A DNA stretch of 26,702 bases from a virus. The translations under genes were made by a program, and so were the position numbers. The notes below the pieces were generated by a model. That model saw nothing but the letters and a program-made list of their open reading frames with translations. It was not told the DNA's origin and did no database searches. This document shows, in pieces, positions 1,844 to 18,924 of this stretch (position 1 is the first letter of the stretch; the number at the start of each line of letters is the position of its first letter). The stretch lies in IMG/VR virus record IMGVR_UViG_3300032323_000758, positions 1 through 26,702 of that record; one strand, written 5' to 3'.

Positions 1844-1872
1844 TACAATAGAGCAAATTGAGAAAGAAAAAG

Positions 1873-4206
1873 ATGGCTGAGCCCTATATCCCGATTTCTC
1901 CGGAAACGCCTCCGATCAATGTTGAGATTCCCGAAGAAAATCTCGGCCCGAACATCACTCCTATGGAGGATGGCGGCGTTACTGTTGATTTTGGAGGTGT
2001 TTCGCCTGAGATTCAGCCTCCCGAAGACCATGCAGCAAACCTCGCTGAGATCATGGATGACTCCGATCTTGATGCAATTGCTGGCGATCTTATTTCAAGC
2101 TTCGAAGACGATCTTGATACCCGCTCAGACTGGGAAAAGGCCTATATTCAGGGTCTGGATCTCCTTGGTTTGAAGATTGAGGAGCGCACAATGCCTTGGC
2201 CGGGTGCCTGTGGTGTGTATCATCCGGTCCTCACTGAGGCTGTGATCCGGTTCCAAGCCCAAACTATTATGGAGGTTTTCCCTTCTCAAGGCCCCGTCCG
2301 GACAAAGATTGTGGGGAAGTCGAATGAAGAACTCCTGAAGCAGGCTCACCGCGTTCAGGAAGAGATGAATTTCATCGTCACTGAGAAGATGACCGACTAC
2401 AGGTCAGAAACTGAACAGCTTCTGTTCCGCCTCCCGCTTGCTGGTTCTGCCTTCCGCAAAGTCTACTACAACACAATCAACGACCGCCCCGCAGCGGTTT
2501 TTGTGCCTGCGGAGGATTTTGTTGTTGCCTACGGCACCACAGATCTCGCCGCTTGCCCGCGCTACACCCATGTAACGCGAACTTATCCGAATGAGCTTCG
2601 AAAACTACAGGTTAGTGGTTTTTACCGGGATATTGATATCCCCGTTCCGTCTCCAGACTACTCTAGCCTTCAAAAGAAGTATGACAAGGTAAAGGGTGAA
2701 ACCCCATCCTTCACAGACGACACCCGGCACACAATCCTTGAGATGTGTGTTGATCTTGATCTTCCTGGTTTTGAAAACCCCGATGGTATCGAACTCCCCT
2801 ATGTTGTTACTATCGAAAAATCCAGCCGCGAGATCCTCTCAATCCGCCGTAATTGGCGGGAAGGAGACCCCGCATTTGAGAAGAGGCAGTATTTTGTCCA
2901 TTATCAGTACCTTCCGGGCCTCGGTTTCTACGGCACTGGGCTCATTCACCTTATTGGGGGAATCGCTAAAAGCGCCACTTCAATCCTCCGCCAACTTGTT
3001 GATGCTGGCACTCTTTCAAACCTACCGGGAGGACTCAAGGCACGCGGACTCCGAATCAAAGGAGATGACAACCCGATCATGCCGGGAGAGTTCCGGGATG
3101 TAGATGTTGCTTCTGGCAATATCCGTGACTCAATCACCTTCCTCCCCTACAAAGAGCCTTCGAGTGTTCTTTACCAGCTTCTCGGGAACCTTGTCGATGA
3201 AGGCAGGCGTATTGGTTCCATCGCTGAGATGGATATCGGGGATTCAAACCCCGAAGCTCCTGTCGGCACTACCCTAGCCCTCCTCGAACGGTCCATGAAG
3301 GTGATGTCTGCCGTGCAGGCTCGCGTTCATGACTCGCTTGGCAAAGAGTTTAAACTTATTGCCGAGGTTGTGAAGGAGTATATGGGGCCAGAGTATGAGT
3401 ATGTTGCTTCAGATGACCAAAATACCCCGGTAAACCGGGTTCAGGATTTTGGCGACCCGGTTGATATCATTCCTGTGTCGGACCCGAACGCCTCCACAAT
3501 GGCCCAGAAGGTTATGCAGTATCAGGCGGCGATGCAGCTTGCCCAGAATGCGCCTCCGGGCATGTATAATATGGAGCTTCTCCATAGGCAGATGCTCCAT
3601 GCTTTAAACGTGCAGAACGTGGATCTGATCATCCAAGGTCAGGCACAGGCGGTGTCTATGGACCCCGTGACCGAAAACCAGATGGTTATGTCTGGCAAGC
3701 CAATCACGGTGTTTCTTGAGCAGGACCATGATGCCCATATCAAGGTGCATACCGCGTTTATGCAGGACCCGATCTACCAGCAGTTTGTGTCGCAGAGCCC
3801 GAACGCCCAAGCCTTTGTCGGGGCCATGCAGCAGCATCTTGCTGAGCATTTTGCCTATTCTTATAGGCGTCAGATTGAACTCAAGCTTGGCGTGAGCCTT
3901 CCCCAGATTGGCGAAAAGCTTCCGCCGGATGTCGAGAACGATATCGCGAAACTGGCCTCCGTTGCCGCTGACCGACTTCTCCAGCAGCACAACGAAGAAT
4001 CCAAGGCCGCAAAGCAACAGCAGGAGGAAAATGACCCGCTCACAGTCATGCAGCGTGAAGAGCTTCGTATCAAGGACGAAGCGGTCAAGGTCAAGGAAAA
4101 GCAAGCCGAAACAGACGCCAAGTACAAAGAGGACAAGATCCTCTTGGAAACGGCTAAAGTGGTCGGTCAGACGCTCTCTTCAAATGCAAGAACCGGAGGC
4201 AGGTAA
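1873..4206 (+). CDS. Portal protein (P22-type)
   Basis: This 777-aa protein should form the dodecameric ring at the capsid vertex through which DNA is packaged and ejected. It follows terL directly and has the length of P22-type portals, longer than HK97 or SPP1 types. The central part has the typical mixed fold with WEKAYIQGLDLLGL and a MPWPGACGVYHP stretch near residues 100-120, and a GLGFYGTGLIHLIGG helix region near 355. The long C-terminal tail (about 620-777) is Gln, Lys and Glu rich and helical, like the barrel and coiled extension of P22 portals. The ATG at 1873 is chosen over an in-frame TTG at 1858 because it gives a usual MAEP start; the upstream purine-rich GAGAAAG is only a modest ribosome-binding site. 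The end carries GGAGG, the ribosome-binding site for the next gene. Confidence 0.9.
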   Translation: MAEPYIPISPETPPINVEIPEENLGPNITPMEDGGVTVDFGGVSPEIQPPEDHAANLAEIMDDSDLDAIAGDLISSFEDDLDTRSDWEKAYIQGLDLLGLKIEERTMPWPGACGVYHPVLTEAVIRFQAQTIMEVFPSQGPVRTKIVGKSNEELLKQAHRVQEEMNFIVTEKMTDYRSETEQLLFRLPLAGSAFRKVYYNTINDRPAAVFVPAEDFVVAYGTTDLAACPRYTHVTRTYPNELRKLQVSGFYRDIDIPVPSPDYSSLQKKYDKVKGETPSFTDDTRHTILEMCVDLDLPGFENPDGIELPYVVTIEKSSREILSIRRNWREGDPAFEKRQYFVHYQYLPGLGFYGTGLIHLIGGIAKSATSILRQLVDAGTLSNLPGGLKARGLRIKGDDNPIMPGEFRDVDVASGNIRDSITFLPYKEPSSVLYQLLGNLVDEGRRIGSIAEMDIGDSNPEAPVGTTLALLERSMKVMSAVQARVHDSLGKEFKLIAEVVKEYMGPEYEYVASDDQNTPVNRVQDFGDPVDIIPVSDPNASTMAQKVMQYQAAMQLAQNAPPGMYNMELLHRQMLHALNVQNVDLIIQGQAQAVSMDPVTENQMVMSGKPITVFLEQDHDAHIKVHTAFMQDPIYQQFVSQSPNAQAFVGAMQQHLAEHFAYSYRRQIELKLGVSLPQIGEKLPPDVENDIAKLASVAADRLLQQHNEESKAAKQQQEENDPLTVMQREELRIKDEAVKVKEKQAETDAKYKEDKILLETAKVVGQTLSSNARTGGR

Positions 4207-6911: not shown

Positions 6912-7823
6912 ATGGCTATTTCACGCGCACAACTTCTCAAGGAACTGCTTCCGGGTTTGAATGCCCTGTTCGGTCTTGAGTATAAGAAGTACGAAAACGA
7001 AGACGAGGCGATCTACGAAACAGAGACCTCCGAGCGTTCGTTTGAAGAGGAACTGAAGCTTTCGGGCTTCGGCACTGCCCCGGTCAAGGCCGAAGGCTCT
7101 GCCATCTCCTACGATAACGCGCAGGAAGTCTGGACCGCCCGTTACAACCACGAAACAATCGCTATGGGCTTCTCCATCACCGAAGAGGCGATGGAAGATA
7201 ACCTCTACGATTCGCTCTCCTCGCGCTACACCAAGGCTCTCGCCCGTTCGATGGCCTACACGAAGCAGGTTAAGGCGGCTTTCCCGCTGAATAACGGCTT
7301 CTCTGGTGGTTCGTTTGTGTCGGGTGACGGCGTTACGTTGTTTAACACTGCCCACCCTCTGGTGTCTGGTGCCACAAACAACAACACGCAGTCCACCCCC
7401 GCCGATCTGAACGAGACCTCGCTTGAGGCCGCTGTGATTCAGATTGCTGGTTGGAAGGACGAGCGCGGTCTGCTTATCGCGGCTCGCCCGCGCAAGCTGA
7501 TCGTTCCGCCGAACCTGATGTTCGTGGCTACGCGCCTGCTGGAGACTGAACTCCGCACAGCAACTGCCGACAACGACATCAACGCGATCAAGACCAATGG
7601 TACGATCCCGGAAGGCTACTCTGTAAACCACTACCTTACAGACACCGATTCGTATTACCTGATCACGGACGTTCCGAACGGCATGAAGCACTTCGTTCGT
7701 ACACCGATGTCTACATCTATGGATGGCGACTTCGACACAGGCAACGTGCGGTATAAGGCTCGTGAGCGTTACTCCTACGGCGTCTCTGATCCGCTCGGCA
7801 TCTGGGGCTCCCCCGGCGCTTAA
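6912..7823 (+). CDS. Major capsid protein
   Basis: This 303-aa protein is the likely shell subunit. It has an N-terminal helical arm (LLKELLPGLNALFGLEYKKY), an acidic E-loop-like region, and a core with FSITEEAMEDNLYDSLSSRY, FNTAHPLVSGATNNN and RPRKLIVPPNLMFVATRLLE, blocks I recognise from HK97-fold capsid proteins related to the Mu gpT-like major head subunits. No N-terminal scaffold or protease domain is present, agreeing with a separate scaffold gene. An AGGAG ribosome-binding site precedes the ATG. The gene ends the head operon: a strong terminator follows 17 nt after the stop. Codon use is regular and C-ending, as in highly expressed genes. Confidence in the role is high, lower for the exact family. 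Confidence 0.9.
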   Translation: MAISRAQLLKELLPGLNALFGLEYKKYENEDEAIYETETSERSFEEELKLSGFGTAPVKAEGSAISYDNAQEVWTARYNHETIAMGFSITEEAMEDNLYDSLSSRYTKALARSMAYTKQVKAAFPLNNGFSGGSFVSGDGVTLFNTAHPLVSGATNNNTQSTPADLNETSLEAAVIQIAGWKDERGLLIAARPRKLIVPPNLMFVATRLLETELRTATADNDINAIKTNGTIPEGYSVNHYLTDTDSYYLITDVPNGMKHFVRTPMSTSMDGDFDTGNVRYKARERYSYGVSDPLGIWGSPGA

Positions 7824-7840: not shown

Positions 7841-7870
7841 AAAAAGGCCCCTTCGGGGGCCTTTTTATTT
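7841..7870 (+). terminator. Intrinsic terminator after the major capsid gene
   Basis: AAAAAGGCCCC (7841-7851) and GGGGCCTTTTT (7856-7866) form an 11-bp perfect stem around a UUCG tetraloop, ending in a T-run. It lies 17 nt after the capsid stop codon. Because the A-run pairs with the T-run it could also work on the minus strand, although no minus-strand gene ends here. Confidence 0.93.
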
Positions 7871-7983
7871 GTGCTAAAATTCAAGTACTCCCAACACTTG
7901 GGCACCGGGCAACCCGGCCTTTCAGACTGTCCCGGCAGACGCTTGCAGAGACTGACTGGTCAAAATCCTGCAAGGATAATACA
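7871..7983 (+). promoter_or_regulatory. Promoter-like site and structured 5' leader before the 64-aa gene
   Basis: After the capsid terminator a new transcript probably starts. TGCTAAAAT (7872-7880) resembles an extended -10. The leader holds a tight hairpin CCGGG (7905-7909) with CCCGG (7913-7917). A second CCCGG copy (7931-7935) could replace the first as partner. A 7-bp stem joins CTTGCAG (7942-7948) to CTGCAAG (7968-7974). The last stem covers the first three bases of the ribosome-binding site AAGGA (7972-7976), 7 nt before the ATG at 7984. This layout fits translational control or a structured RNA. There is no ORF here. Confidence 0.5.
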
Positions 7984-8178
7984 ATGGCGAATACCAGCTT
8001 TTCCGGCCCCGTAAAGGTTTCAGAAACCTTCACAGTGGCTACTGTTCCTGATGCGACTCTCAGCGAGGGCGGTCAGATCTATGTAAACAACGGCGCGAAC
8101 GGCGCTCCCATCATTGCCTTCTCCAACGGCTCCGCTTGGCTTCGCGTTGATACACGCGGCGTTCTTTCCGCCACCTAA
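7984..8178 (+). CDS. Small Gly/Asn-rich virion-type protein
   Basis: This 64-aa protein starts at an ATG preceded by AAGGA at 7-nt spacing. It has the pattern SEGGQIYVNNGANGAPIIAF followed by SNGSAWLRVDT, a short beta segment commonly seen in phage tail-fibre and virion surface proteins (a gain-of-display-like GG-IYV-G-P-AFS-G-W pattern). As a free-standing small protein next to the capsid gene it may be a minor decoration or head protein; the function is not known. It stands alone between a terminator with a structured leader and a second hairpin at 8183-8198, so it may be expressed separately and strongly. Confidence 0.75.
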   Translation: MANTSFSGPVKVSETFTVATVPDATLSEGGQIYVNNGANGAPIIAFSNGSAWLRVDTRGVLSAT

Positions 8179-8218: not shown

Positions 8219-8704
8219 ATGGCTCAGCAGTATGACGTAAAGTCATTTCACAACACAGTTTCTGGTGTTGCGGTTGACTACAAGACGCGCCTTAAGGGTG
8301 TCGTTATTTCCCCTTCAACGTCCGTAACGTATAATATTTCGTTTTGCGACAACATTTATGTCTCCGGTACATATGATGTGCCGGGATCTACAGTTTGCAC
8401 CGTGACAATTGCGAACCACGGCCTTTCGGACAACGACAGGGTTTATTTAAACTTCACTTCCGGCACATCTCAGGATGAGTCGTATGATGTTTCAAACGTG
8501 ACGCAGAACACATTCACGGTTACTGTTGCCTCCGCTACGACAAGCGGGAATGTGGATCTGTATCCTGTTGTTTTGGCGGAGTTTGATTGCTCAAGCGGCA
8601 CATCATTCTACACCTTGATCCCCGGAGAAGGCATTCTTGCCGACAATGGTATTTATGTTGGAATCCCCAGCGCATCCGTGACCACAACAATCTTTTACGG
8701 GTGA
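8219..8704 (+). CDS. Virion-type beta-rich protein, paralogue 1
   Basis: This 161-aa protein has a perfect AGGAGG ribosome-binding site before its ATG. It opens with QQYDVKSFHN, continues with DYKTRLKGVVIS and has a central module VTIANHGLSDNDRVYLNF followed by YDVSNVTQNTFTVT, ending in IPGEGILADNGIYVG. The central HGL-GD-V...NTFTV pattern is the beta module that is often labelled an E1 FCCH-like domain in phage virion proteins. The next gene encodes a protein of the same length and layout, so the pair is a tandem duplication. A surface role (decoration, head fibre or tail part) is inferred from composition and position; no enzyme motif is seen. Confidence 0.78.
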   Translation: MAQQYDVKSFHNTVSGVAVDYKTRLKGVVISPSTSVTYNISFCDNIYVSGTYDVPGSTVCTVTIANHGLSDNDRVYLNFTSGTSQDESYDVSNVTQNTFTVTVASATTSGNVDLYPVVLAEFDCSSGTSFYTLIPGEGILADNGIYVGIPSASVTTTIFYG

Positions 8705-8708
8705 TGCC

Positions 8709-9194
8709 ATGATGCAATATGATGTTAAAAGCTATCTCGCGAACCAGTCTTCAATTGCTGCGAATTACAGAACAAGACTCAAGGGCATAACTGTTACGTC
8801 TGCCACTGTCTCGGCCCGCAATATCGCAATTGCAGACCCAACTGTGGTGAAGTCTGGCACTTGGGACCGCACCGGAACCCTCGTGACTGTCACGATCACC
8901 AACAACGGGGTCGCAGATGGAGACCGCGTATTCATCGACGTTGCTGCTGGCACAACCATGCGAGATGGCGTTTACACGGTATCAAACGCAACTCAGAACA
9001 CGTTCACGGTAACATCTGTCACATCCGGCACTGCCAATGGCACGGTGGATATGTACACCGACATTCTGCTTGAACTCGACACATACAACACAATTGGCCT
9101 GCCCGTGAAGATCCCCGGAGAAGGAATTCTCTGCGAGAACGGCATCTTTGTTGGCGTTGGTGCCAATGTAACCGCCACAGTCTTCTACGGTTAA
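8709..9194 (+). CDS. Virion-type beta-rich protein, paralogue 2
   Basis: This 161-aa protein aligns end to end with the preceding gene product: MQYDVKSYLAN, NYRTRLKGITVT, VTITNNGVADGDRVFI, YTVSNATQNTFTVT and IPGEGILCENGIFVG in the same order, both ending FYG. The start may be the ATG at 8709 or the adjacent one at 8712; no strong ribosome-binding site is seen and the gap to the previous stop is 4 nt, so coupled translation is likely. Identity between the two copies is partial and lowest in the first third, so the duplication is old. It probably occupies the same or an alternating position in the virion as paralogue 1. Confidence 0.78.
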   Translation: MMQYDVKSYLANQSSIAANYRTRLKGITVTSATVSARNIAIADPTVVKSGTWDRTGTLVTVTITNNGVADGDRVFIDVAAGTTMRDGVYTVSNATQNTFTVTSVTSGTANGTVDMYTDILLELDTYNTIGLPVKIPGEGILCENGIFVGVGANVTATVFYG

Positions 9195-9197
9195 ACA

Positions 9198-9452
9198 ATG
9201 GCCAAATCCCCTGCTTGGACCCGCAAGGAAGGCAAGAACCCCAAAGGTGGCCTCAACGCCAAGGGGCGCGCCTCTTATAATCGTGCAAACCCCGGTAAGC
9301 CGGGGCTCAAAGCCCCGCAGCCTGAAGGTGGGTCTCGCAAGGATTCGTTCTGTCGGCGGATGAAGGGTATGAAGAAGAAGCTCACCTCGGCAAAGACAGC
9401 CAAAGATCCCAACAGCCGCATCAATAAATCCCTCCGCGCATGGAATTGTTAA
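9198..9452 (+). CDS. Small basic conserved phage protein (DUF6321-like)
   Basis: This 84-aa, very basic protein has the pattern SPAWTRKEGKNPKGGLNAKG, then a KPGLKAPQPEGG linker, FCRRMKGMKKKLTSAKTAKD and a C-terminal NSRINKSLRAWNC. I recognise this as the small family named DUF6321, widespread in phages near virion genes; its role is unknown. The high Lys and Arg content and lack of hydrophobic core suggest nucleic-acid binding, perhaps as an internal capsid or DNA-condensing protein, which is inference. The gene starts 3 nt after the preceding stop codon and is the first of several basic proteins in this part. Confidence 0.82.
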   Translation: MAKSPAWTRKEGKNPKGGLNAKGRASYNRANPGKPGLKAPQPEGGSRKDSFCRRMKGMKKKLTSAKTAKDPNSRINKSLRAWNC

Positions 9453-18481: not shown

Positions 18482-18924
18482 TGGCGGAGAAGTTTTGTGC
18501 CGGGTGCCAAAACAATTTGCCATTGCTTAACTTTACAATCAGGAAAACTGGACCTCGTACTGGTCAGCCAGCTTCAAAGTGCAAACAATGCAGGATTGCT
18601 GTCCAAGTGAAATACAGGGAACGGGACAAAGGTTTATACGATAGAGTTGAATGGCCGTCCAAGATAAGGAGGGCTTATGGCATTGAGCCAGAAAATTATT
18701 ACAGGATGCTGGAGGATCAGGGCGGAGGGTGCGCCATCTGCAAATCCAAAGTTCCGGGTTATAATAAGAAAAGAAGGTTTGCCATTGACCACTGCCACAC
18801 AACCGGAAAGGTCCGAGGCGTGCTTTGTCATCCATGCAACAAGGCTTTAGGCTCATTTAAGGATGATCCAGAAATCATGCTTGAGGCCGTAGCCTACATA
18901 AAAAAATCAAGACAGGAGAATTAA
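18481..18924 (+). CDS. HNH endonuclease, recombination endonuclease VII type
   Basis: This 147-aa protein has an N-terminal ribbon with C6, C9, C34 and C37 and a C-terminal endonuclease VII domain: CAIC (84-87), FAIDHCHTTGKVRGVLC (100-116), HPCNKALGSFKDDPE (117-131). T4 endonuclease VII resolves branched DNA before packaging, and many phages carry small homologues as homing or repair nucleases. The gene starts on the last base of the preceding stop codon (TGATG), and its end holds the AGGAG ribosome-binding site of the next gene, so it is built into the operon rather than standing apart. Both roles, junction trimming for packaging and homing, are possible. Confidence 0.9.
   Translation: MAEKFCAGCQNNLPLLNFTIRKTGPRTGQPASKCKQCRIAVQVKYRERDKGLYDRVEWPSKIRRAYGIEPENYYRMLEDQGGGCAICKSKVPGYNKKRRFAIDHCHTTGKVRGVLCHPCNKALGSFKDDPEIMLEAVAYIKKSRQEN

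Follow-up and report, generated by a model that had tools for sequence, protein, structure and literature searches.

The window, that is, the whole stretch of viral DNA analysed (26,702 nucleotides), contains genes of a tailed-phage structural module, including those of the terminase (302-1843) and the portal protein (1858-4206). A Mu gpT-like major capsid protein gene occupies 6912-7823 on the + strand, and its product was matched to phrog_371 (E 2e-19) and to Pfam Mu-like_gpT (38.9 bits, cut-off 20.1). Behind it, on the same strand, are found an intrinsic terminator with an 11-bp stem and a T run (7841-7866), a putative extended -10-like promoter element, TGCTAAAAT (7872-7880), recognized by its sequence and its position in relatives, the leader studied here (7890-7983) and a gene encoding a 64-aa protein that starts with the cement-type N-terminal arm MANTSFSGPV (7984-8178). 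A first-pass annotation of this DNA had proposed a riboregulator-type leader of a virion gene directly behind a terminator and an extended -10-like element; both elements, and all the other motifs that it named, were located at their positions when the sequence was checked. Further downstream, two tandem paralogous genes (8219-8704 and 8709-9194) that are 49% identical showed weak likeness to baseplate-wedge and tail-spike PHROGs, and an 84-aa gene (9198-9452) matched the C-termini of several large PHROG proteins whose function is unknown.

When folded alone, the window leader reached -28.3 kcal/mol, a value that 28 of its 200 shuffles did as well as (z = -0.99); this non-significant energy was rejected as evidence for structure, and the case was therefore built on relatives. 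Viral contigs were searched with three capsid proteins and the 64-aa protein, yielding several hundred loci (individual relatives are designated L plus a number), and from the region before the next gene in these loci 259 distinct leaders were collected, of which 117 were dissimilar to each other. A search with the RNA pattern and no protein anchor has revealed another 80 loci, with the capsid gene upstream in 78 and with contigs cut short in the remaining two. A start of the T-T-F-x-G-P-V type was found about 30-40 nt downstream in about 76 of these 80, the others mostly ending early or being printed in another frame. Overall, the leader is present in hundreds of aquatic phage contigs, behind a Mu gpT-like capsid gene and ahead of the small gene that follows it, at most once per phage record, and in the isolates HTVC023P, DSL-LC04, HTVC027P (weaker match) and CRP-901/902 (short form, see below). 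Among 84,980 cellular genomes searched it was found in one contig, between a capsid gene and a TTFxGPV-type gene; this contig is itself phage-like, and a cellular origin was discarded. The leader was absent at distant Mu gpT-like capsid loci that have no TTFxGPV gene type (L131, L132, L135-L137), and present in L134, which has this gene type and a capsid gene only 38% identical.

The leader at 7890-7983 precedes the gene of a cement-type, capsid-stabilizing protein; on comparative grounds, it is practically certain to have a conserved RNA fold composed of the helices P1, P2, U-L2 and K. The 5' strand of P1 (7916-7925) pairs with 7952-7961, interrupted in the window by a 2x2 mismatch (7920-7921/7956-7957), and both strands are supported by covariation. 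P1 encloses a nearly invariant junction A (7926, conserved in at least 90%), the covarying 3-bp hairpin P2 (7927-7938, pairing 7927-7929 with 7936-7938), an AC that is invariant in the alignment columns of 44 sequences (7939-7940), the 5' strand of K (CTTGCAG, 7942-7948, covarying in the unguided alignment) and the junction AGA (7949-7951), whose GA is invariant in the alignment columns and is preceded by A in 84 of 93 leaders. The pentamer U (CCGGG, 7905-7909), supported by a permutation test and by anchored covariation, is the 5' strand of the pseudoknot helix U-L2, and its 3' strand (CCCGG, 7931-7935) lies in the P2 loop (7930-7935). The 3' strand of K (CTGCAAG, 7968-7974) overlaps by 3 nt the Shine-Dalgarno site AAGGA (7972-7976), identified from the sequence ahead of the start codon at 7984. 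A 7-bp stem had been described as covering part of AAGGA; its pairing and its overlap with the site were confirmed, and it is the covarying pseudoknot helix K, not a local hairpin. Similarly, the recurring CAGAC (7923 and 7936) and AGAGAC (7947) are all present, although the family alignment identifies them as pieces of the P1/P2 junction, A-CNG...CNG-AC...nGA, and they were rejected as independent repeats forming protein sites. An optional hairpin, H0 (7890-7902, pairing 7890-7894 with 7898-7902), is specific to the window clade (L089-L118), where it sits between the promoter-like element and U, and is supported by compensatory forms: CCCAA/TTGGG in the window, CCACA/TGTGG in L099 and AACCC/GGGTT in L100. 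The parser returned 24 of the 117 dissimilar leaders as having no core; some of them were missed through a mismatched innermost P1 pair, and many still match the covariance model.

The two pseudoknot helices were subjected to a permutation test with 76 dissimilar leaders in which only P1 and P2 were required. U-L2 pairing was found in 67 of them, against a mean of 16.6 and a maximum of 26 with permuted loops, and K pairing in 70, against a permuted mean of 16.1 and a maximum of 26. Covariation was evaluated in the R-scape style, by a G statistic with average-product correction, against null alignments in which parsimony substitutions were redistributed over a FastTree tree. The 17 significant pairs of the anchored alignment are all located in P1, P2, K and U-L2 (four of the five U-L2 pairs being significant), and the 11 obtained with the unguided MAFFT alignment are all located in P1, P2 and K. 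The latter include six pairs of P1, in which all seven counted pairs vary on both sides, and four of K (7945-7971, 7946-7970, 7947-7969 and 7948-7968); in P2, CTG/CAG is exchanged with CAG/CTG and the middle pair is significant. In the unguided alignment 91.3% of the cells were paired, compared with 60.4% after shuffling and 17-42% when slid, and the covariation score was 0.81, compared with 0.24 and at most 0.18, respectively. The U and K anchors of the anchored alignment were picked by complementarity, and therefore the permutation test, the unguided alignment and the pair counts constitute the less biased support; since U is misaligned in the unguided alignment, support for U-L2 comes from the permutation test and the anchored alignment. 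U and its loop partner were found as CCGGG/CCCGG, CTAGG/CCTAG, CCTAG/CTAGG, CCAAG/CTTGG, CCGAG/CTCGG, CTGGG/CCCAG, CCAGG/CCTGG and CCCGA/TCGGG, and the variants of K include ACATGC/GCATGT, TAGTAG/CTACTA, GTATAG/CTATAC and CCTAG/CTAGG. In P1, G-U combinations numbered 52 and A-C combinations 5, indicating that the strand that folds is the + strand, the mRNA. Compensatory changes in relatives, on which the first-pass annotation had made its proposal depend, were thus found through hundreds of base changes, and together with the strict genomic context they support a riboregulator-type leader.

Two copies of CCCGG had been noted as possible partners of CCGGG, in a switch-like choice. The pairing of U with the distal copy (7931-7935) holds throughout the family, whereas pairing with the proximal copy (7913-7917) is a feature of CCGGG-type leaders, in which it was found in 26 of 31 cases (1.7 expected from shuffled spacers). 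This local hairpin changes in step in L023, L028 and L036; with other U sequences it was present in only 4 of 36 leaders (permutation p 0.01), and it was discarded as a family-wide feature. The local pairing occupies the outer P1 bases 7916-7917 and is mutually exclusive with U-L2, which makes a two-state leader plausible from the pairing pattern, confined to the CCGGG part of the family.

The N-terminal motif MA-x-TTF-x-GPV is common to 212 ORFs of about 60-310 aa that share little else; behind this constant arm (MAxTTFxGPV) the C-terminal domains are unrelated and differ greatly in length. From these sequences, the leader and the arm resemble a fixed cassette in which the body can be exchanged. 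The AlphaFold model of a 151-aa relative in L336 (mean pLDDT 71, with a disordered N-terminal arm) has as its top PDB matches the phage cement/capsid structures of Pam1 (7eel), KHP30 (7dn2), GP4 (8h89) and KHP40 (7dou), with E values from 4e-6 to 8e-5, in agreement with the fold of the trimeric Ig-like phage cement proteins that bear an N-terminal arm, and the gene behind the same leader in DSL-LC04 is annotated as 'cement protein'. The model of the 64-aa protein of the window consists of an N-terminal arm and a small beta domain, and a fold search with it gave no significant match; its designation as a putative cement protein is taken from the arm-sharing relative in L336. PDB sequence searches with the cement relative and the capsid protein gave nothing usable, and the PHROG label 'Rz-like spanin' of the cement relatives was rejected, being weak and in conflict with fold and synteny. 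In Pam1 the N-terminal loop of the cement protein touches the E-loop of the capsid, and in GP4 the cement and capsid proteins are each present in 540 copies (PMC9698820).

Masking of the Shine-Dalgarno site recurs in the family by different means, through K in the long form present in the window and through P1 itself in a short form found in sister phages. In the long form the site starts -4 to +1 nt from the end of K, abutting or overlapping it, in 60 of 73 relatives; all 15 representatives of the short form have the 3' strand of P1 plus AG as the site (CCUG/CAGG-AG). In L013, L016, L017, L040 and L041, which have no obvious K, a local hairpin was observed around the site just before the start codon (TTTTTT-CGGAG-AAAAAA in L016). 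The short form is the Rfam Mu-gpT-DE RNA (RF03012), with scores of 59.1 bits in L015 and 72.3 bits in Roseobacter phage CRP-902 at a gathering cut-off of 49 bits. The window leader did not match RF03012, a search of the whole window giving only a chance 11.9-bit match at 18879; no Rfam family was matched by the long form, and L219 scored only 10.9 bits against Mu-gpT-DE, although in register. Both forms follow a Mu gpT-like capsid gene, directly precede a start codon and have the core order P1 - A - P2 - AC...GA - P1'. Mu-gpT-DE, of about 53 nt, has a long P2 and the Shine-Dalgarno site inside P1, with U-L2 and K not modelled, whereas the window form has a 3-bp P2, U-L2 and K, with the site at K. 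As it fails the RF03012 model, the window form was classed as a variant of the Mu-gpT-DE kind, not a member. Intermediates were found in L013/L017, with U-L2 plus a GCCAAGA segment like that of the short form, and in L219/L230, with K and without U. From synteny, the common core and these intermediates we infer that the long and short forms share ancestry.

The leader has been replaced by a homing-endonuclease-like gene, so labelled by eye from its GIY-YIG-like start, in L003, L005, L090, L094-L096, L101 and L112-L116, where the stop codon of this gene is overlapped by the cement ATG; in L012, L019, L037 and L054 a similar gene, again between the capsid and cement genes, lies upstream and the leader is retained. 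The leader is therefore dispensable in the L003/L005/L090 lineage, and phages can do without the RNA, at least if coupling of translation to another gene is possible.

The preferred reading of these data, to which a probability of about 0.6 is given, is that the leader would act in cis as a translational operator on the cement gene, folded over its Shine-Dalgarno site and probably held or released by a capsid protein of the phage. Conservation of the fold through hundreds of base changes in aquatic phages argues that the leader is very probably a real switch or brake for the cement gene, and cis control of translation initiation, as such, is highly probable. The folded K would keep the 30S subunit off the start site, and the leader would thereby set the output of cement protein in cis; in CCGGG-type leaders an alternative state would be available, with the 5' pentamer in the local hairpin. 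A phage capsid protein would probably hold or release the fold through the invariant P1/P2 junction, candidate ligands being free capsid protein and the cement protein, which would act by way of its conserved N-terminal arm. A phage protein is favoured as ligand because one virion gene is strictly paired with the leader and the junction bases are invariant, and a leader sensing it would match the supply of cement protein to the capsid lattice. Feedback by the cement or capsid protein is put forward tentatively, as slightly more doubtful than not: the cement proteins have in common just the short N-terminal arm, and they are not known to bind RNA. The widest version of the proposal is more speculative. 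It would be an RNA switch class that meters cement protein, with the P1/P2 junction reading free cement or capsid protein or the assembly state and the pentamer toggling between U-L2 and the local hairpin. Abundant phages of the sea and of fresh waters, those of SAR11 among them, would share it, and Mu-gpT-DE would be its reduced form.

The main rival of a translational operator is a passive leader that senses nothing and that, located at the start of the mRNA, hides its 5' end from decay enzymes and fixes a moderate initiation rate for a virion protein needed in abundance. In 44 of 68 dissimilar relatives a terminator-like hairpin separates the capsid gene from U, and -10-like hexamers (score of at least 5) were found upstream of the leader in 51% of the relatives versus 29% of the shuffles, which supports the position of the element in the window; a terminator and a promoter-like element would give a separate transcript, in line with a passive leader. 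The hexamers end mostly 7-10 nt 5' of U, so that transcription in relatives likely starts at or next to U, and the message would begin with this strand. In the window this distance is 24 nt because its clade carries the additional hairpin at 7890-7902, and a further 5' hairpin also agrees with end protection. The strict tie of the leader to one gene is equally expected of a passive leader. However, such a leader explains neither the invariant junction nucleotides nor the clade-wide competing hairpin, simpler hairpins would suffice for it, and it is considered unlikely.

A metabolite riboswitch carried by phages would account for the compact pseudoknot with an invariant core adjoining the Shine-Dalgarno site, as in preQ1 and SAM-II, but the aptamers of known riboswitches are usually found before more than one gene and in more than one host, whereas this leader is bound to one virion gene, with at most one copy per phage and one contig in 84,980 cellular genomes, and matches no known Rfam riboswitch family; this explanation is improbable. 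The Rfam type of Mu-gpT-DE (Gene; sRNA) and the position behind the capsid gene would suit a trans-acting small RNA derived from the 3' end of the capsid mRNA. Against it, a terminator usually separates the leader from the capsid gene, the positions of K and the Shine-Dalgarno site are tied to that of the following start codon, and the RF03012 model ends in AUG, so Mu-gpT-DE is also a 5' leader and a trans-acting role is highly improbable. Its filing as an sRNA and a 'downstream element' looks like a misread 5' leader, and it is among the families whose database structures have no covarying pairs (PMC7657543). A small double-pseudoknot RNA with invariant unpaired bases also recalls a self-cleaving ribozyme, which would trim the cement mRNA. 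Ribozymes are carried by some phages, but no Rfam ribozyme family was matched and the strand order is unlike that of HDV-like and pistol ribozymes, so that this possibility is hardly credible.

Phages of the leader-bearing HTVC023P type make up about 7.6% of ocean virome reads (PMC12753301). RNA-seq data of HTVC027P infection are publicly available (PMC12753301) and, since there are leader-bearing isolates, the idea is testable now. With an operator of this kind, Mu-gpT-DE, an orphan that Rfam lists as sRNA, would become the short extreme of a broader group of translational leaders whose target gene is defined. It would also be a rare phage-wide case of RNA control over the supply of a capsid part, in some of the most abundant viruses on Earth.

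In the preQ1-I/II and SAM-II riboswitches a pseudoknot helix masks the Shine-Dalgarno site in a compact leader, but their ligands are metabolites, they belong to bacterial metabolic genes and their sequence and topology are unrelated to those of the window leader. The E. coli rpsO (S15) leader is also an mRNA pseudoknot acting as a translational operator, in that case for its own protein product (PMC3014915), although it belongs to a host ribosomal protein gene and has a different fold. The leader of T4 gene 32 is, like that of the window, a phage mRNA leader with a pseudoknot upstream of the next gene, whose translation it controls in T4; autoregulated by gp32, it was considered by reviewers as possibly the only viral example in translational autoregulation (PMC3014915). 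In the T4 system the pseudoknot lies about 67 nt upstream, nucleates protein binding and does not cover the Shine-Dalgarno site, and the fold and the gene, restricted to T4-type phages, are different. The analogy with T4 gp32 (PMC3014915), joined to the single virion gene and the invariant junction, favours a phage protein as the probable ligand of the window leader.
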